NCBI GenBank assembly: GCA_013001965.1
Contig: JABDLA010000102.1
Location: 1-36,436 of the forward strand
Length of the DNA stretch: 36,436 bases
DNA from: Flavobacteriaceae bacterium
GTDB lineage: Bacteria > Bacteroidota > Bacteroidia > Flavobacteriales > Flavobacteriaceae
Direction: 5' to 3'
Below the pieces are notes generated by a model. That model had not been told where the DNA came from, did not search any database, and worked only from the letters and a program-made list of their open reading frames with translations. How positions within the stretch are numbered: the stretch's first letter is position 1; each line of letters begins with the position of its first letter. Position numbers and translations under genes: made by a program. Below are positions 9,840 through 18,141 of the stretch, one piece after another.

Positions 9840-10186
9840 TGCAATTACCATCAACATTTGACGACCTTATTGCAGAAGCCAATAAGAATAAGCTTTACAA
9901 AAAACTTATCAGCCAATTGAATAAGGATTTTATACTGGCGAACATTGATATTGGGTTTGATCAAGAGATCTTACCCACAAGTTTGAAGTATTTACTCCAT
10001 GAAAAAGTCTATGAACTGATACAGGAAAAATTCAGTGATTATCTGAATTTGCTTTATATCATCGATGTTTCTGAAGATAAAGTCAAGCTATTAGATGGCA
10101 GCGATGTTCTAAAGCTGGCCGAACAGGTTAGTTTTTTAATTCTTCAAAGGGAGTGGCAAAAAGTGTGGTACAAGAACACCCACTAA
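9839..10186 (+). CDS. Small unknown cytoplasmic protein coupled to polyprenyl synthase
   Basis: Not recognised. The 115-residue protein has no signal peptide, membrane segment or cysteine motif. It is largely helical by pattern, with an acidic middle and a C-terminus rich in Trp/Lys (QREWQKVWYKNTH). Its ATG shares the last base of the upstream TAA (TAATG), so translation is probably coupled to the prenyl synthase. Its stop overlaps the stop of the convergent nosY gene by four bases. Codon use and base composition match the neighbours, which supports a real gene over a chance frame. Function cannot be inferred beyond the linkage. Confidence 0.75.
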   Translation: MQLPSTFDDLIAEANKNKLYKKLISQLNKDFILANIDIGFDQEILPTSLKYLLHEKVYELIQEKFSDYLNLLYIIDVSEDKVKLLDGSDVLKLAEQVSFLILQREWQKVWYKNTH

Positions 10187-10965
10187 AAATCCTTCCTTTT
10201 TGCTTTGAATACAATTCTTAAAACAGGTAACACAACCCAAAGCAACAGAATAACAAATGAGATTAACAGCCCGAAATTTGTTCCAAAAAATCGTTTAAAT
10301 ACTGCACCTGTATATCCCAACAAAGCAGAGATATCCAATTTTAAAAGAATGAGTGTACGAGACAAGTCAATAGGGTTGAGCATACTACCTATAAGTGATA
10401 ATCGATCGAGCGGATAGTCTTCAAAAAGAATAAGTGACATTAAGAACAATCCGTCATAGATAACCGCCAGAAATAACCATAACAGAATGGCATAACCAAA
10501 GCCTTTGATCCGATTCTCATTTGACAATGCAATATTAAAAGCCAGGGCGGTGAAAATAAAAGTAAGAAAGGTTCCTGTGATCAGTAAAAGCGAAAAATCC
10601 CATATAACATTAGATTTCATTAAACCATAAAATATAAATGGAATCCCCAGCCCCAATATCAAACTCATCGATAGGGACAGGGCAACACCCAAATACTGAC
10701 CAAGAAATATGGTAGAGCGTTTTAAGGGCTGTGCCAATAACAGCTCGGTGAACTCCTTGGAATTATAATAATACATTACCCCGAAAACAGTTCCAATCAA
10801 TGGCACCAAAATGATGATCACATTCATTAAGGAGATGACCGCTTTCGATAAATCACTATTTAGAAACAGCAGTACAATGCCCAATACAAGGTAAAATGCA
10901 AAATAGACGTAACTCCAACGACTACGCATGAGATCATAAAAGCTGTATTTTAATATTTTAAGCAT
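10183..10965 (-). CDS. nosY: NosY-type ABC transporter permease of the nitrous oxide reductase cluster
   Basis: Membrane partner of NosF. The NosDFY complex is needed to mature the copper centres of nitrous oxide reductase. The 260-residue protein has about six hydrophobic helices (residues 18-35, 39-65, 92-115, 122-145, 155-180 and 234-255) and the ABC-2-type motif YYNSKEFTELLLAQPLKRSTIFLGQ after the second helix. The start overlaps the end of nosF by eight bases, giving translational coupling. It ends tail-to-tail with the small gene on the plus strand (4-base overlap), so no separate terminator is visible. The name rests on the family plus its place after nosD-nosF. Confidence 0.88.
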   Translation of the reverse strand: MLKILKYSFYDLMRSRWSYVYFAFYLVLGIVLLFLNSDLSKAVISLMNVIIILVPLIGTVFGVMYYYNSKEFTELLLAQPLKRSTIFLGQYLGVALSLSMSLILGLGIPFIFYGLMKSNVIWDFSLLLITGTFLTFIFTALAFNIALSNENRIKGFGYAILLWLFLAVIYDGLFLMSLILFEDYPLDRLSLIGSMLNPIDLSRTLILLKLDISALLGYTGAVFKRFFGTNFGLLISFVILLLWVVLPVLRIVFKAKRKDF

Positions 10966-11665
10966 TGTTTCGTTTTAATATGGATGCAATGGCATGTTCA
11001 AAATCTGATTGCTCCGTTCGTTTTTTCAGTTCTTCAATACTGCCTTTAAAATATATTTTACCTTCGAGAAGAAAGACGATCTCATCGGAAACCTCTTCAA
11101 CAAAGCTCATGATATGTGATGTGATCAAAATGGTCTTTCCCTCTGCCTTGGCAGTATTGATAAGTCCCTTTAATTGGATTAGGGAGTTTGGGTCTAATCC
11201 GGTTGTTGGTTCGTCAAGGATAATCAACGGACTGTCGAACATAAAGGTTAGAACGATATTCACTTTTTGCTTCGTACCGCCGGATAAGGTGGCCAACTTC
11301 TTATTCAGAAAAGGTTCCAATTGAAATAGTTCGATAAGATGCTCATCTTCAGATTCATCTTCTCTCAGATCCTTGATCATTTTAAGGAGTTCCTTGACTT
11401 TTAAGTTATTTGGGAAATTTGCAATCTGAGGTAAATAATCAATTTCCTTTCTGTATGTAGAGTCTTTTTTAATATTCTGCCCCAAAACAGATATAAGTCC
11501 TTTATTAGGAATGACCATGCCTAAAATTGATTTGATAAGGGTGGTTTTCCCTGACCCATTTGGGCCCAGGATAGCAAATATGCCCCCTTGATCGATATTG
11601 AGATCGATCCCGCTAAGCACCACATTTTTATTGAATCGTTTATGTAAGTTTTCAATGTTTATCAT
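10958..11665 (-). CDS. nosF: NosF-type ABC transporter ATPase
   Basis: Cytoplasmic ATPase that powers NosFY-dependent NosZ maturation. The 235-residue sequence has Walker A GPNGSGKTTL near residue 34, a Q-loop (YLPQIANFPNNLKVKELL), the ABC signature LSGGTKQKVNIV, Walker B PLIILDEPTTGLD and the switch histidine in ITSHIMSF. It starts four bases inside the end of nosD (ATGA overlap) and overlaps nosY by eight bases, a tight three-gene unit. The family is certain; NosF identity follows from the flanking nosD and nosY. Confidence 0.92.
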   Translation of the reverse strand: MINIENLHKRFNKNVVLSGIDLNIDQGGIFAILGPNGSGKTTLIKSILGMVIPNKGLISVLGQNIKKDSTYRKEIDYLPQIANFPNNLKVKELLKMIKDLREDESEDEHLIELFQLEPFLNKKLATLSGGTKQKVNIVLTFMFDSPLIILDEPTTGLDPNSLIQLKGLINTAKAEGKTILITSHIMSFVEEVSDEIVFLLEGKIYFKGSIEELKKRTEQSDFEHAIASILKRNNA

Positions 11666-12900
11666 TCTCTCTTTTTCATTAATGGATTTTCATCGACCAA
11701 ATTATCAGGAGTAAAAACAGGAGATACTTTTTCGGAAAAATCAATGATATCAATGAACAAACTTCGCAACAGGACTATGGTTTCGGGAGTACGATTTACG
11801 ATGTAAGAGAACAGTTTCACCGGCCTATAGGGCACATCTCCAATACCGTCCTTATCGAGATCATAACCCGTATAATTGCTCCAGTAATTCTGATCGAATA
11901 TATTGTCATTGATCCTACTGTTATAGGCAATATCGAATGAATTATATAAAAAATTATTATTGATGAACCTATTGGTATAGCAGGCACCTCTAACCTTTAT
12001 GGCCCAGCCGTTATTCATGAATGTATTGTTTTTATAATCAATACGATTGGATCCTTCAAGGCTGATCCCAATGGTGTTTCTGTCGAAGATATTGTCTATT
12101 ATTTCGGCATCGGTAATTTCTTTAAGCAACAGACCGTAGGAAGCACTGCCCCAATTTTCACGAAAATGATTATTGATCATCTGAATATTCTTCGAAAACA
12201 TAACGGCTACTCCGGCTCCATTATCTTCAAAGACGTTTTGCTGATAGATATCATCATTGGAAAACATGAAATGCAGGCCATATCTCAAGTTCTTAGAACT
12301 CGAATTGTTCTTTATGACATTATCATCTGAAAATTCAAGGTATATACCATCCCGAACGCCCTCTAAACTATTGTATTCAATATCGATGTGATGGCTGTAC
12401 CATAAATGGATCCCGTTTCCTGAATTGTGTTCTTCAACGGCATCACCTACCACCTTATTATGATAAATTTTACCATGGCTCGACTTCTCTATATAAATAC
12501 CAAAAAACAGATTCTCCAACACCAGGTTCTGAATGACGAAATTCTTGCTTTTTCTAACCCGAAGTGCTGCGAAGTCCTCGGTATAACTAATGCCAACATT
12601 TTTAATAAAAAATCCATCAATGGTAACATCATCTGATTCAATTGTTAAGATTTCGCCTTTCCTGCCACCGTCAATAATGGGGTCGTCTTTTCCAATAATG
12701 GTCAATGGTTTATCGATGACTATCCCATATTCATTATAAGTGCCTTTTTGCACCATAATCGTATCAAGGGCCTTTGCGTTTTTAATGCCATCTTTGATAC
12801 TTGAGAACTCACAAGTTGAACATACATCAATTGATTGCGCAACTATAGCGTAACTATATACACACAGACATGCCATGAAGATCTTCCTTAACTTGCTCAT
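11662..12900 (-). CDS. nosD: NosD, periplasmic beta-helix copper-maturation protein
   Basis: Periplasmic protein that works with NosFY and NosL in assembling the copper sites of nitrous oxide reductase. The 412 residues begin with a Sec signal (cleavage near AIVAQ, residue 22) and then a right-handed parallel beta-helix of the CASH/NosD family, with repeated N-x-F/I turns (IDNIFDRNTIGISLEGSNRI, IYHNKVVGDAVEEH). A CSTC pair (Cys27, Cys30) lies just after the signal, a possible metal or disulfide site. A 146-base gap to the upstream cupin gene holds no convincing promoter. Confidence 0.93.
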   Translation of the reverse strand: MSKLRKIFMACLCVYSYAIVAQSIDVCSTCEFSSIKDGIKNAKALDTIMVQKGTYNEYGIVIDKPLTIIGKDDPIIDGGRKGEILTIESDDVTIDGFFIKNVGISYTEDFAALRVRKSKNFVIQNLVLENLFFGIYIEKSSHGKIYHNKVVGDAVEEHNSGNGIHLWYSHHIDIEYNSLEGVRDGIYLEFSDDNVIKNNSSSKNLRYGLHFMFSNDDIYQQNVFEDNGAGVAVMFSKNIQMINNHFRENWGSASYGLLLKEITDAEIIDNIFDRNTIGISLEGSNRIDYKNNTFMNNGWAIKVRGACYTNRFINNNFLYNSFDIAYNSRINDNIFDQNYWSNYTGYDLDKDGIGDVPYRPVKLFSYIVNRTPETIVLLRSLFIDIIDFSEKVSPVFTPDNLVDENPLMKKRE

Positions 12901-13046: not shown

Positions 13047-13340
13047 CTATCTAATGATTAAAAAAATGGAGTTTTTTGTGGCTTCAACCCAATGTTCTTC
13101 CTTTTTAGGAAAGTCAAAGAACTGATGTTTTTTTAAGATGAATTTATCAGAATTGATGTAAAAATTTATTTCCCCTTCAAGTACTAAAATATAGGCATCG
13201 GTTGGTGATGTATGTGTAGGGAATATTGCATCCGCTTCAAGATGAACCTGAATTATTTCTCTTGCATTTAGATCCATTATTTTCGCTACCTGAAGGCCTT
13301 GAAAGGATCTGGTGTTGATGGTATCAGAAATCGTGTACAT
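13047..13340 (-). CDS. Small cupin-domain protein within the nos operon
   Basis: A 97-residue single-domain beta barrel. I start at ATG 13340 (MYTISDTINTRSFQGLQ), five bases after the nosL stop; a longer frame from 13376 would overlap nosL. The core HLEADAIFPTHTSPTDAYILVLEG and the later motif FDFPKKEEHWVEA are cupin-like, but the usual HxH metal triad is degenerate: only scattered His remain (H-T in motif 1, H-W in motif 2). No signal peptide, so cytoplasmic. Co-transcription with nosL suggests a role in copper handling, NosZ expression or small-molecule sensing, but none is demonstrated by the sequence. Confidence 0.8.
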   Translation of the reverse strand: MYTISDTINTRSFQGLQVAKIMDLNAREIIQVHLEADAIFPTHTSPTDAYILVLEGEINFYINSDKFILKKHQFFDFPKKEEHWVEATKNSIFLIIR

Positions 13341-13345
13341 ATGCG

Positions 13346-13780
13346 TTATTTTAAATGGGCCAATAAATCCTCCCAACTATAAAGTTGACCACCTTTTTCC
13401 GACTGTGTTTTCAGGGCTTCACCCCGAGATTTAAATGCCGACAAGAAAGCACCCATCGGGCTGGGAATATTTTCGCTGATTAAAAATGTAGAGTTCGTGG
13501 CATCGATAAGTTTACCGGGCTCAGAAAAACTGGTATTCAAATACAGTGCGATCTCAGACGTATCAAAATCCTTTCTGAAATTAACCATACATTCTATGGC
13601 ATCGAATTTATAAGCCTTTCCTTTTGAGGTTACGATTTCGGCAGCATGGACTTTATCTACTATGGTCATTTGACAATAATAGCAGCTGTCTTCACCATAT
13701 TGTATGGGTTGGGGACCCACAGTACATGAGGCATAAATAAAGAGTATTGCAAAAGCAATAAGTGTTTTTAGTGTTTTCAT
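13346..13780 (-). CDS. nosL: NosL copper-binding lipoprotein
   Basis: Outer periplasmic lipoprotein that delivers Cu(I) toward NosZ/NosD. The 144 residues start with a lipoprotein signal (lipid Cys19, context YASC), then the NosL signature: DSCYYCQM (Cys33, Cys36, Met38), AAEIV, and FDAIECMVNF. These match the copper-ligand pattern of NosL family proteins, with Tyr-Tyr between the cysteines and Gln in place of the more common Gly. It is 29 bases after the nosB-like gene and five bases before the cupin gene. Confidence 0.93.
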   Translation of the reverse strand: MKTLKTLIAFAILFIYASCTVGPQPIQYGEDSCYYCQMTIVDKVHAAEIVTSKGKAYKFDAIECMVNFRKDFDTSEIALYLNTSFSEPGKLIDATNSTFLISENIPSPMGAFLSAFKSRGEALKTQSEKGGQLYSWEDLLAHLK

Positions 13781-14527: not shown

Positions 14528-16486
14528 TTAATCTTCTCCGAGTGACCAGGACAATTCTATGTTGGAATCCCGTGGGGATACTCTAACATAACCTTGCATC
14601 TCCTGGTGCAGAGCCGAACAGAAATCTGTACAATAGAACGGCCAAACACCCGGTTTTTTCGGTTCCCAGGTCAGGGTTTTAGTTTGACCTGGCATAATTA
14701 ATAATTCAGAATTATTAGCGCCAATTATGGCAAAACCATGAGGCACATCAAAATCTTGCTCGTGATTGGTGATATGAAAATAGACTTTATCACCTACCTT
14801 AATTCCTTCAATATTATCTGGTGTAAAATGACTTCTGATCATAGCCATATAAACATGTACTTCGTTGCCATTTCTCACTACTTTGGTATCTGCCACAGAT
14901 AGTGTGGCATATTCATGCTTATTCTCTTCCAGTTTATAAATTTTCTTCGATTTTGGAGCCAGAAGTTCAGCCGGACATCCTGCTGCATAATGCGGTTCGC
15001 CATGCGTTGGGAAATCTGATAATAATTCCATTTTATCTCCCGAAATATCATAAAGCTGAGCCGAGTGCTCTAATTCTGGACCAGTTGGTAAATAACGGTC
15101 TTTGGTAATTTTATTCATCGCTACAACATACTTGCCAAATGGTTTTCTTGAGTTACCACCAGGGATCATAAGGTGCCCAACAGAATAATAGGTAGGTTTT
15201 CTATCGATAACTTCCCATGTACCTAACTTCCATTTAACAACTTCAGATGAAATGAAGAAGGTTGTATAAGCATTACCTTCAGCATCGAATTCTGTATGTA
15301 ATGGCCCTAATCCACCACTCTTAACGCTACCTGCATTAATGGCTTCGAAATCAAGAACAGGAATTCCATAGGCATCAGCAGAAAACTTTTCATTTTCTAT
15401 GGCGTCCATCATTTTTGTAAATGAGTGTACAGTAACATCGGCAGATAACTTTCCACTACCAACAATATATTCACCTGTTGGATCAACATCACAACCATGT
15501 GGAGATTTTGGTGTTGGCAGGAAGTAAATTGCACCCGCGACTTCGGTTGGATCAATGGTCAGCACTTCATTAATGGTTGTTGAGGTTGCCGTATGCGTTT
15601 CCTCATCATACACATTATGCATGTATTGCGTTGGCATTTTAGTTCCTCCACCGTTGGCAACATATTCTTCTATTTTTTGCCAGTTAACGGCAGCGATAAA
15701 ATCCTTATCGTTTTGTGAGGCATTGACTTCCATAAGTGTACTGGCCTCTTCGGTATTATAGGTTGTGAAGAAGAACCAGCCATGAGAATCGCCTCGTCCG
15801 GGATGAGCCTTGTCATAATCAAAACCAGGCATAAGCACCTGGAATGCGAGATTCATTCTACCACTATCAGGATTAACCTTGTAAAAGGTCAAAGCACCTT
15901 TAAAATTTCCTTTCTTGTCCTTGATAGGCATATCTCTTTGAGGCACAGGAACAGCAAAGCGTGTACCGGCGACTACATATTCTGTATTTTCAGTGACATA
16001 AGATGAACTGTGGTTACCAGCACAATTAGGCACTTCAATAATTTCGGCTGTTTCGAAGGTCGAGAGGTCAATTCTGGCAATACGTGGCGTATTGTTACCA
16101 TTAACAAAGACCCATCGGCCATCTAATTCACCATTTGTTTGTGATATATCAGGGTGATGCAAATCATCCCAGGGCACAAATCCGAAAGATGTATTAAGCA
16201 ATGGCTTGGTTTCTTCCGAATAGCCATATCCTGATGTTGGAAATTGTGAGAACACAGGGATTTCCTTAAACATTCTACCCGATGGTAATCCGTATACAGT
16301 TAAATTACCACTATAGCCACCGGATAAGAAGGCATAGAATTCGTCCTGTTCTCCCGGAGCAACATAGACTTTTTCAGCAGCACTTGAACTAAGTGCGCCA
16401 TTGCCCTGAGACCCTGTATTGTTACAGCCTACTATTAAGGTTGCAGAAGCAACTAAAGTGGCTAATCCTTTAAATAAATTTTTCAT
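14528..16486 (-). CDS. nosZ: Nitrous oxide reductase NosZ, clade II, Sec-exported lipoprotein form
   Basis: Reduces N2O to N2 in the periplasm using a CuA electron-entry site and a tetranuclear CuZ site. The 652 residues show a Sec/lipoprotein signal (lipid Cys21, context LIVGC) instead of the twin-arginine signal of classical NosZ, which marks the clade II (atypical) type. CuZ histidines are seen in DLHHPD, GNHSSS, DSHGWFF, SPHGCDVDPTGEY, LGPLHTEF, GHLMIPGG and HGEPHYA on the beta-propeller. The C-terminal cupredoxin has the complete CuA set in FYCTDFCSALHQEM (two Cys, His, Met and the preceding Trp). All key ligands are present, so the enzyme should be active if copper-loaded. It follows the FAS1 gene by 21 bases. 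Confidence 0.97.
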   Translation of the reverse strand: MKNLFKGLATLVASATLIVGCNNTGSQGNGALSSSAAEKVYVAPGEQDEFYAFLSGGYSGNLTVYGLPSGRMFKEIPVFSQFPTSGYGYSEETKPLLNTSFGFVPWDDLHHPDISQTNGELDGRWVFVNGNNTPRIARIDLSTFETAEIIEVPNCAGNHSSSYVTENTEYVVAGTRFAVPVPQRDMPIKDKKGNFKGALTFYKVNPDSGRMNLAFQVLMPGFDYDKAHPGRGDSHGWFFFTTYNTEEASTLMEVNASQNDKDFIAAVNWQKIEEYVANGGGTKMPTQYMHNVYDEETHTATSTTINEVLTIDPTEVAGAIYFLPTPKSPHGCDVDPTGEYIVGSGKLSADVTVHSFTKMMDAIENEKFSADAYGIPVLDFEAINAGSVKSGGLGPLHTEFDAEGNAYTTFFISSEVVKWKLGTWEVIDRKPTYYSVGHLMIPGGNSRKPFGKYVVAMNKITKDRYLPTGPELEHSAQLYDISGDKMELLSDFPTHGEPHYAAGCPAELLAPKSKKIYKLEENKHEYATLSVADTKVVRNGNEVHVYMAMIRSHFTPDNIEGIKVGDKVYFHITNHEQDFDVPHGFAIIGANNSELLIMPGQTKTLTWEPKKPGVWPFYCTDFCSALHQEMQGYVRVSPRDSNIELSWSLGED

Positions 16487-16507: not shown

Positions 16508-17080
16508 TTATTCTTCTGGTATAATAACTTTATCAACGACGTGCACGATGCCATTTCCTGCCGGAACACTAGCTAGGATCTTGGCTCCGCCTACAAATAC
16601 ATCATCACCCTTTACTTCCACCGGAACATAGCCATTACTTGCCTGTCCTAATTTTTTGAATTTTTTTAGGAAATCTTTAGAATAATTTCCAGGGGTAACA
16701 TGATGTTTTAAAATATGAGCAAGTTGATCTTTATTTTCGGGTTTCAATAGATTTTCAACTGTCCCTTCGGGTAAGGCGGCGAAGGCGTCATTGGTTGGTG
16801 CGAAAACCATTAATGGTCCGGCGTTAACCAGTGCATTTTCCAGCTCGGCAGCCTGTACTGCTGCAACCAATGTGGAATGATCTTTAGATCCAATTGCAAT
16901 TTGAAGCACATTTGGTTTACCCTCATCGTCCTCAATAAATGCTTGACCTGTTTTTTTGTCGCCATCGGTCTTTTCTACTGTATCTGTCTCCTTTGTTTGG
17001 TTTGATTTAGTATCGTTATTACAGCTCGTAATAAATAATGCTAAAGCGCAAATTAATAATAAGTGGGATAGTGTTTTCAT
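16508..17080 (-). CDS. FAS1 (fasciclin) domain lipoprotein in the nos operon
   Basis: A 190-residue lipoprotein: the signal ends ALFITSC with lipid Cys20, then an acidic, Lys/Thr-rich linker to about residue 55, then a single FAS1 domain with both hallmark boxes, H1 (LMVFAPTNDAFAALP) and H2 (GNGIVHVVDKVIIPEE), and the central HILKHHVTPGNY. FAS1 domains mediate adhesion or protein contacts; no catalytic residues are implied. The gene is seven bases after the cytochrome c gene and 21 before nosZ, so all three should be one transcript. A role as a NosZ partner, scaffold or membrane tether is inference from context. Confidence 0.92.
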   Translation of the reverse strand: MKTLSHLLLICALALFITSCNNDTKSNQTKETDTVEKTDGDKKTGQAFIEDDEGKPNVLQIAIGSKDHSTLVAAVQAAELENALVNAGPLMVFAPTNDAFAALPEGTVENLLKPENKDQLAHILKHHVTPGNYSKDFLKKFKKLGQASNGYVPVEVKGDDVFVGGAKILASVPAGNGIVHVVDKVIIPEE

Positions 17081-17087
17081 TATATAA

Positions 17088-17594
17088 TTAGTTTAAAGTT
17101 CTGAAGTATTCTAAAACGGCTCTGGCTTCTTCTTCTGTAAGATTTTGATTGGCCATTGGTGATCCATTGAATTCAATAAGTAACTTCTTGGCAAGAGGAT
17201 CATTTTTTACCATGCCTTCAGGGTCAAGGATCATATTCATGACCCATTCCGGAGTTCTTCTTTCTAAAATACCGTTTGGAGCAGGCCCAATGAATTTTTT
17301 ACCTATTCTATGACATGCCAAACACATTCTATCGTAAACATCTTTACCTTGGGCAGCCATTCCTTGGTCTATGGTTTCAGGCAAATCAAGCGAGCTAACA
17401 GGACCTACACCCTTATTGGTAAGATCTACAGTTAATGAGGCCAATTGTTCAGTCTCTTTTTTCTCAACTTTTTTAGTAGTTGGTTCACTCTTCAGTTTCA
17501 CCTTTGATTTTTCTTCTTTTTTATCTTCTCCGCCGCTACAGCTCAATGCTAAAAAGGCGAAGCTGATCATTATTAGTTTTAGTGTCGTTTTCAT
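17088..17594 (-). CDS. Class I c-type cytochrome lipoprotein, probable NosZ electron donor
   Basis: A 168-residue monohaem cytochrome: lipoprotein signal with lipid Cys19, a long charged Lys/Glu linker (about 22-50) that would let the domain reach out from the membrane, and a haem site CLACH at 91-95 followed by IGKKFIGP. The probable axial ligand is Met147 in GSPMANQNLTEEEARAVLEYF. It is the first gene of the operon that continues into FAS1 and nosZ. With no nosR or nosX in view, this is the best local candidate to feed electrons to the CuA site (inference). It also fits a general cytochrome c551-like donor. Confidence 0.92.
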   Translation of the reverse strand: MKTTLKLIMISFAFLALSCSGGEDKKEEKSKVKLKSEPTTKKVEKKETEQLASLTVDLTNKGVGPVSSLDLPETIDQGMAAQGKDVYDRMCLACHRIGKKFIGPAPNGILERRTPEWVMNMILDPEGMVKNDPLAKKLLIEFNGSPMANQNLTEEEARAVLEYFRTLN

Positions 17595-17613
17595 GATTTA
17601 TTGATTTATGGAA

Positions 17614-17621
17614 CAAATTTA
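17614..17621 (-). promoter_or_regulatory. -7 box of the nos operon promoter
   Basis: On the minus strand TAAATTTG matches TAnnTTTG exactly, ending 19 bases before the cytochrome c ATG. No TTG -33 box is found at the right distance, which fits an activator-dependent promoter (see the palindrome at 17644-17657). Confidence 0.68.
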
Positions 17622-17643
17622 AGAGGCAAAAAAGTGTTATAAA

Positions 17644-17657
17644 ATGACAAATATCAT
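17644..17657. promoter_or_regulatory. FNR/CRP-like palindrome between divergent nos and Rrf2 promoters
   Basis: ATGA-CAAATA-TCAT is a 4-6-4 inverted repeat similar in form to FNR/Dnr sites (TTGA-N6-TCAA); outer A/T pairs add to the symmetry. Its centre (17650.5) is about 41.5 bases from the predicted nos start (about 17609) and about 42.5 from the predicted Rrf2 start (about 17693), the class II activator distance for both. Confidence 0.5.
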
Positions 17658-17661
17658 ATTT

Positions 17662-17677
17662 AAGACAAATAAGTCTT
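17662..17677. promoter_or_regulatory. Possible Rrf2 operator
   Basis: AAGAC-AAATAA-GTCTT is a perfect 5-6-5 inverted repeat ending three bases before the -7 box of the Rrf2 gene, where a bound repressor would block its transcription. It is short and could arise by chance in AT-rich DNA. Confidence 0.38.
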
Positions 17678-17680
17678 TTA

Positions 17681-17688
17681 TATCTTTG
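17681..17688 (+). promoter_or_regulatory. -7 box of the Rrf2 regulator gene
   Basis: TATCTTTG matches TAnnTTTG exactly. It ends 21 bases before the ATG at 17710 and lies inside the longest reading frame, showing that the frame's far upstream ATG (17644) is not the true start. Confidence 0.68.
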
Positions 17689-17709
17689 AACAATCTTTTT
17701 ATTGAAATT

Positions 17710-18141
17710 ATGTTTTCAAATGCTTCTAAATATGCCATAAAAGCAGCTATTTTTTTAGCACTTCATACTGATAACAACTGCAAAATTACAGTTAAGGAAA
17801 TTGCTGAATCTATAAATGTTCCTCAGGCGTATATCGCAAAATTATTGCAGGAACTATCACGCAAGAATGTCATTTCTTCTGCCAAAGGCCCTAAAGGTGG
17901 GTTTTTTGTTAGTGAAGCCAATAAAAAGATTCCTTTAATTCAGATCATAACAGCATTAAATGCTGGTGAAAGAATGGATGAGTGCCTTTTAAGCCTTGAC
18001 AAATGTGACACCGAAAAACCTTGTCCGTTGCACAAATTTGCCTATCCATTGCGATCTCAACTCATTGCTAATTTGAGCAAGAAGACTATTGGAGAAATCT
18101 CAGATGAGGTGACCAAAGGAAAGGCCTTTCTTCCTCTTTAA
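17710..18141 (+). CDS. Rrf2-family Fe-S transcription regulator next to the nos operon
   Basis: A winged-helix regulator of the IscR/NsrR/RirA group, 143 residues from the ATG at 17710. The upstream ATG at 17644 is rejected because the gene's own -7 box lies between. The HTH spans about residues 24-66 (ITVKEIAESINVPQAYIAKLLQEL, then the wing GPKGGFFV). Three cysteines, C92-x6-C99-x5-C105, sit where Rrf2 proteins bind an Fe-S cluster. It is transcribed away from the cytochrome c-FAS1-nosZ operon, so sensing of NO, oxygen or iron to control nos expression is the likely role. Its stop overlaps the facing gene's stop by four bases. Confidence 0.9.
   Translation: MFSNASKYAIKAAIFLALHTDNNCKITVKEIAESINVPQAYIAKLLQELSRKNVISSAKGPKGGFFVSEANKKIPLIQIITALNAGERMDECLLSLDKCDTEKPCPLHKFAYPLRSQLIANLSKKTIGEISDEVTKGKAFLPL

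Follow-up and report, generated by a model that had tools for sequence, protein, structure and literature searches.

Clade II nitrous oxide reducers, many of which belong to the Bacteroidota, are considered important as a biological sink for this strong greenhouse gas; nevertheless, we know of essentially no description of the regulation of nos genes in these organisms. The question, then, is how a member of this group switches on N2O reduction. We analyzed a 36,436-nucleotide stretch of DNA from a Flavobacteriaceae bacterium (contig JABDLA010000102.1; hereinafter, the window), the draft genome of which comprises 2.74 Mb and is 87% complete. In the window, a nos operon faces a divergently transcribed gene for an Rrf2-family regulator across a short gap. 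We computed the potential regulatory sites in this gap, their spacings, their conservation and the co-occurrence of one of them with Rrf2 genes; from these data we infer, with a probability of roughly three in four, that N2O respiration is controlled at this gap through two inputs, a Fnr-type activator and the Rrf2 protein.

The nos cluster and the divergent gap

The minus-strand segment 10183-17594 is a clade II nos cluster with the gene order cytochrome c, FAS1, nosZ, membrane protein, nosL, cupin, nosD, nosF, nosY. The genes relevant here are:

17710..18141, plus strand, Rrf2-family regulator, 143 aa
17088..17594, minus strand, c-type cytochrome, first gene of the nos operon
16508..17080, minus strand, FAS1 (fasciclin) domain lipoprotein
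14528..16486, minus strand, nosZ, Sec-dependent (clade II) nitrous-oxide reductase (TIGR04246, 934 bits)
13346..13780, minus strand, nosL (PF05573)
11662..12900, minus strand, nosD (TIGR04247)
10958..11665, minus strand, nosF-type ABC ATPase
10183..10965, minus strand, probable nosY-type ABC permease (weak PF12679 match and position beside nosF)

The small cupin-domain gene between nosL and nosD occupies 13047-13376. Among the other genomes, three distant NosZ-like matches of 31-34% identity lie next to one another on a single contig (G037:C136).

Between the cytochrome c start at 17594 and the Rrf2 ATG at 17710, the gap comprises 115 bases with 20% GC. The Rrf2 frame is open further upstream, to an ATG at 17644 that lies inside the first of the two palindromes listed below, but homologs align from the ATG at 17710 and the start of the longer ORF is therefore not that of the gene. 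The elements of the gap are:

17595..17709, divergent regulatory gap between the cytochrome c-FAS1-nosZ operon (minus strand) and rrf2 (plus strand)
17614..17621, minus strand, -7 box of the nos operon, TAAATTTG (CAAATTTA on the plus strand), predicted start 17609
17644..17657, no strand, FNR/CRP-type box ATGACAAATATCAT, ATGA-N6-TCAT, center 17650.5, at -41.5 of nos and -42.5 of rrf2
17662..17677, no strand, second palindrome (P2) AAGACAAATAAGTCTT, predicted Rrf2 operator, core 17663-17676 with one mismatch to RGAYANNNNTRTCY
17681..17688, plus strand, -7 box of rrf2, TATCTTTG, predicted start 17693

Promoters of Bacteroidota have an unusual -7/-33 architecture, and the initial annotation had described this 115-base gap as containing exact -7 boxes in both directions and no good -33 box; its coordinates, boxes and palindromes proved correct throughout. 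No correctly spaced TTTG -33 box was found on either strand of the gap: the sole TTTG of the plus strand is within the -7 box, and on the minus strand the nearest -33 candidate (17648) and the -7 box are 26 bp apart. Where transcription starts have been mapped in a flavobacterium, TAnnTTTG is located at -12 to -5 (PMC9723704), and it is this geometry that gives the predicted starts at 17609 for nos and 17693 for rrf2. Measured from the center of the first palindrome, the T of the -7 box is 29.5 bp away on the nos side and 30.5 bp away on the rrf2 side; with the T set at -12 (PMC9723704), the palindrome falls at -41.5 and -42.5, respectively, so that the distances of about 41.5 and 42.5 bases from the predicted starts, proposed initially, hold under the mapped flavobacterial geometry. 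With regard to nos, an inverted repeat of CRP/FNR form centered at -41.5 occupies the FNR-type class II position.

Conservation of the FNR/CRP-type box

To assess conservation, 146 Bacteroidota nos loci, with a few duplicates among them, were gathered by searching with nosZ and Rrf2. In 129/146 nos promoters, the palindrome is exact and its start is separated by exactly 30 bp from that of a nos -7 box that has one mismatch at most. The two palindromes recur at fixed spacing in more than 100 related species; as expected of an FNR-type class II regulon, the spacing of the first one from the -7 box is likewise kept at ccoN (25/28; see below). The spacer columns between the nos -7 box and the palindrome vary freely, and the flanks widen the palindrome to approximately AAATATGAY-N4-RTCATATTT, a CRP/FNR-type site. 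Both palindromes survive in orthologous nos promoters; their absence there was one of the two outcomes named in the initial annotation as speaking against its interpretation. When the window's gap was shuffled, the palindrome arose in 0.46% of the shuffles, and none of 200,000 combined it with both -7 boxes at about these spacings; in a further set of shuffles, the rates were 0.4% for the palindrome alone and 0.005% for the palindrome with a -7 box. The CRP/FNR-type palindrome and its spacings are real, far beyond chance. That both palindromes are accidents of a gap with 80% AT, in which palindromes of such size do occur at some rate, is ruled out for practical purposes by the rarity of the palindrome and of the joint arrangement in the shuffles and by the conservation across nos promoters. 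The box is missing in about ten of the 146 loci, and most of these have a P2-like palindrome nearer the nos -7 box.

One box and two promoters

The palindrome had also been proposed to switch on both the nos operon and rrf2. The geometry of the window fits this proposal, whereas among the 66 divergent loci only about half fit on the rrf2 side, and here the proposal holds in part. A rrf2-side -7 box at a spacing d of 36 or 37 is exact in 22/66 divergent loci (0.3% in shuffles) and present with at most one mismatch in 37/66 (4.8% in shuffles). Given that the rrf2-side -7 box is at the activating spacing in only 37/66 loci, the nos side is the constrained one. These data leave considerable room, although somewhat less than an even chance, for the interpretation that the box controls nos alone, that its distance from the rrf2 promoter is a by-product of compact packing, and that rrf2 is governed solely through its own P2, by autoregulation. 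The invariant nos-side spacing set against the scatter on the rrf2 side (d = 37, 36, 47, 42 and others) speaks for this interpretation, as does the fact that rrf2 genes located elsewhere carry P2 but mostly lack the box at activator distance. It does not readily account for the excess of boxes at d = 36 or 37 over the shuffles, for the window itself, where d = 37 and the rrf2 promoter has no -33 box, or for four non-adjacent rrf2 genes that retain the box upstream (L152, L155, L157, L160).

The second palindrome as a predicted Rrf2 operator

The P2 motif is RGAYA-N4-TRTCY, and its start lies 19 bp from the start of the FNR/CRP-type box in 89/112 loci. In the window, 3 bp separate the end of P2 from the rrf2 -7 box; in the most common divergent layout, its center is 11.5 bp upstream of the T of this box, i.e., in the core promoter of rrf2, and with respect to nos it is located at about -60, upstream of the first box. 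In three loci (L180, L194, L196), P2 is found at an offset of 28-29 instead of 19, about one helical turn further, which suggests phase-dependent contact between two bound proteins. The initial description of P2 as abutting the rrf2 -7 box, where a repressor would act, stands with regard to position and conservation, but P2 is not solely the local operator of rrf2: it persists in nos promoters without an adjacent rrf2, which rules out a purely local role and indicates that P2 probably acts on nos too.

Genomes with P2 but no adjacent rrf2 nearly always encode an Rrf2 protein of the same subfamily at another site, in many cases within the same neighborhood at a distance of several kb. With the presence of the subfamily defined by a 60-bit cut that was chosen after a gap in the scores had been seen, P2 is found at nos in 58/65 cases with an adjacent Rrf2 and in 48/56 with Rrf2 elsewhere (106/121 in total), compared to 0/8 without the subfamily (Fisher p = 3e-7, a value that overstates independence because the loci are kin by descent); in 15/121 genomes, P2 is absent from nos despite a subfamily Rrf2. 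Upstream of non-adjacent rrf2 genes, P2 was detected in 20/20 cases, mostly 50 to 60 bp ahead of the start codon, compared to 3/20 Rrf2 paralogs (shuffle rate 9%; p = 3e-8, which likewise overstates the independence of the loci). The absence from nos in genomes without the subfamily and the presence at all non-adjacent rrf2 genes rule out that P2 is unrelated to Rrf2. P2 is best read as the predicted operator of this Rrf2 subfamily, to which, rather than to one subclade, we assign it.

A strict P2 scan of five other genomes retrieved mainly nos, the rrf2 promoters and ric, with napDA in one genome. Applied to the window's own genome, a draft of 87% completeness, the same strict scan gave no match, and no ric gene was found there. 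The predicted targets of the Rrf2 subfamily look like a nitrogen-oxide response set. In G019, a perfect P2 precedes a napDA-type periplasmic nitrate reductase operon (L374, G019:C6), which suggests that napDA joins the Rrf2 regulon in this genome. At the nos locus of the same genome (L123), a rrf2-like frame just past the gap looks degraded, as in a pseudogene, and both palindromes are intact. Three loci (L065, L078, L089) contain an extra P2 of the GGACA type that covers the core promoter of nos, in the interval from the first box to the -7 box; their adjacent Rrf2 belongs to the other of the two subclades described next.

The Rrf2 subfamily

Three cysteines of the Rrf2 protein, C92, C99 and C105, are invariant in 107/107 relatives and are predicted Fe-S ligands, a combination of family membership and conserved cysteines that is also characteristic of NsrR. 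Because the protein does not pass the curated NCBIfam model of NsrR (33.7 bits, with a cut-off of 182) and passes the Rrf2 superfamily model alone, we do not file it as NsrR, although it may work alike. The gene that follows rrf2 in the scanned genomes is ric (TIGR03652, above the cut-off), an NO-damage repair gene; in eight divergent-type genomes, ric with P2 is found beside a second Rrf2, and in relatives the predicted operator is located ahead of NO-stress genes such as ric, as is the case for NsrR. In the tree of the Rrf2 proteins, two subclades are apparent that correspond roughly to the nos-divergent and the ric-linked genes, with moderate support (~0.78). We considered that the non-adjacent Rrf2 genes are relocated copies of the nos-divergent gene and did not uphold this explanation: several divergent-type genomes carry both types, and the tree splits them roughly into the two subclades.

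A tentative model of nos control

Based on the positions of the two sites, we propose a tentative model for the control of N2O reduction. A Fnr-type Fe-S, O2-sensing activator, most likely the product of G000:C75, would bind ATGA-N6-TCAT at -41.5 of nos and would recruit RNA polymerase by class II activation to a promoter in which a good -7 box is present and a -33 box is missing. The same site, at -42.5 in the window, would be placed to activate rrf2 too. The Rrf2 protein, a predicted Fe-S protein of an NsrR-like subfamily, would bind the neighboring P2; P2 covers the rrf2 core promoter, and autorepression by Rrf2 is therefore expected. On the nos side, where P2 is at about -60, it would touch or slightly overlap the footprint of the activator, and Rrf2 bound there would probably restrain FNR-driven transcription of nos as long as its cluster is not damaged by NO or a related signal. 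We favor such anti-activation by Rrf2, relieved upon cluster damage; both the negative sign and NO as the signal are predictions. Repression is favored by most of the loci without the FNR/CRP-type box, in which P2-like palindromes lie at a distance of 16 to 30 bp from the T of the -7 box of nos.

The opposite sign, with P2 as a second activator site from which Rrf2 at about -60 contacts the C-terminal domain of the polymerase alpha subunit and assists FNR, appears unlikely, at perhaps one chance in several. Rrf2 proteins such as IscR can activate transcription, P2 stays 19 bp from the box at nos operons without an adjacent rrf2, and the few loci at an offset of 28-29 are compatible with phase-dependent contact. 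Against this, the P2-like palindromes close to the nos -7 box and the placement of P2 in the rrf2 core promoter are repressor positions, and ric is a classic NsrR-repressed gene.

We lean, if only slightly, toward the view that clade II nos operons of the Flavobacteriaceae are controlled by a previously undescribed two-operator module, namely a Fnr-type box at -41.5 that can be shared by divergent promoters and a Rrf2 operator at a fixed distance of 19 bp, making anaerobic activation conditional on nitrogen-oxide stress. One compact DNA stretch would then tie N2O reduction to O2 as well as to NO. No earlier description of either motif was found in the literature searched, the coverage of which excludes most subscription papers. 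If the model is valid, the two predicted sites would explain how a large, little-studied flavobacterial group turns on N2O removal. The motifs, their spacing and the candidate proteins suggest that promoters of Bacteroidota obey a class II activator geometry similar to the one in E. coli, and they provide sites for direct testing and for sequence-based prediction of regulation in hundreds of genomes.

Candidate proteins that bind the box

A strict scan of the window's own genome for the box yielded 9 sites versus 1 for a reversed control, whereas a loose scan that allowed one mismatch (72 sites versus 31) was too noisy to be useful. One further box in this genome is directly upstream of ccoN (L230), a cbb3 oxidase gene, beside ccoI and a gene for a Fnr-like protein (G000:C75) that adjoins the cbb3 oxidase cluster. 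The box precedes ccoN at the same spacing as in nos promoters in 25/28 genomes, in 18 of these as an exact palindrome, and P2 is absent from 22/24 box-bearing ccoN promoters. Since ccoN shares the box and, in the window's own genome, the Fnr-like gene adjoins the ccoN cluster, a flavobacterial FNR box is the best interpretation.

Cysteines 4, 7, 53 and 106 of the Fnr-like protein are invariant in 26/26 sequences. Three of them (4, 7 and 106) are in register with C20, C23 and C122 of Fnr (offset 16); the position equivalent to C29 of Fnr is not a cysteine, and C53 would have to substitute. The protein scores 85.5 bits with the NCBIfam Fnr model, below the cut-off of 228, and its recognition helix GTATExxIR is conserved. 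By genomic context and these protein features, a Fnr-type activator is best read as the leading candidate for the protein that binds the predicted box.

Binding by another CRP-family protein, a receiver-CRP fusion or a cAMP-type CRP, in place of the four-cysteine Fnr seems to us rather improbable. Its support comes from genomes without the Fnr-like gene, in which the nos box is kept and a receiver-CRP protein has a matching helix, GIATExLIR: G142, G102, G223, G278 and G185 have no close Fnr homolog, retain the box and encode such a receiver-CRP protein of 350 aa. By contrast, the window's genome, G008 and G254 yielded Fnr alone at the search threshold used, the remaining CRP-type genes of the window's genome differ in the recognition helix, and the position of the box at ccoN suits an O2-responsive regulator, all of which agrees with the Fnr-type candidate. 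The proteins at L354-L358, of ~350 aa, combine an N-terminal response-regulator receiver domain with CRP/FNR domains and have a recognition helix that matches the one of Fnr, and in some genomes they are encoded near Fnr and cbb3 genes. At L281, L282 and L284, in genomes without a close Fnr homolog, the distal half-site of the ccoN box is CTGAC/TTGAC rather than ATGAC, and the spacing is the same.

Comparison with known regulatory systems

The nos box of the window matches the class II distance of -41.5 seen in proteobacterial FNR/DNR promoters. In the FNR/DNR-dependent nos, nor and nir promoters of Proteobacteria, the DNR box is CTTGATnnnnATCAAG (PMC1274295), and the likeness consists in a CRP/FNR-family box ahead of denitrification genes including nosZ. 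The half-site is TATGAY here and TTGAT there; the promoters described here follow the Bacteroidota pattern, with TAnnTTTG and without a -33 box; the predicted regulator has retained Fnr-like cysteines that are absent from DNR; and the target is a clade II cytochrome c-FAS1-nosZ operon.

The canonical NsrR operator is a long inverted repeat with AAGATGC-type half-sites, whereas the predicted operator here is the short RGAYA-N4-TRTCY palindrome and does not conform to that type. Similarity to NsrR, the NO-sensing Rrf2 repressor (PMC1274295), extends to the Rrf2 family, three invariant cysteines, predicted autoregulation and ric (ytfE/scdA) as a target; a further difference is that the present Rrf2 genes are beside or linked to nos in Bacteroidota, and that NO sensing is predicted.

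Rrf2 genes adjoin those for cytochrome c and nosZ in Bacteroidota clade II clusters on Ushuaia Bay fosmids, where the presence of these genes was reported and their role was called difficult to predict (PMC6264515); to that report, the present analysis adds the predicted operator, its spacing, the FNR box and the co-occurrence. The HcpR2 regulon of Bacteroides (motif GTAACnnnnGTTAC; PMC1274295) likewise involves a CRP/FNR-family regulator and nitrosative functions in Bacteroidota, and differs in both its motif and its target genes (hcp).
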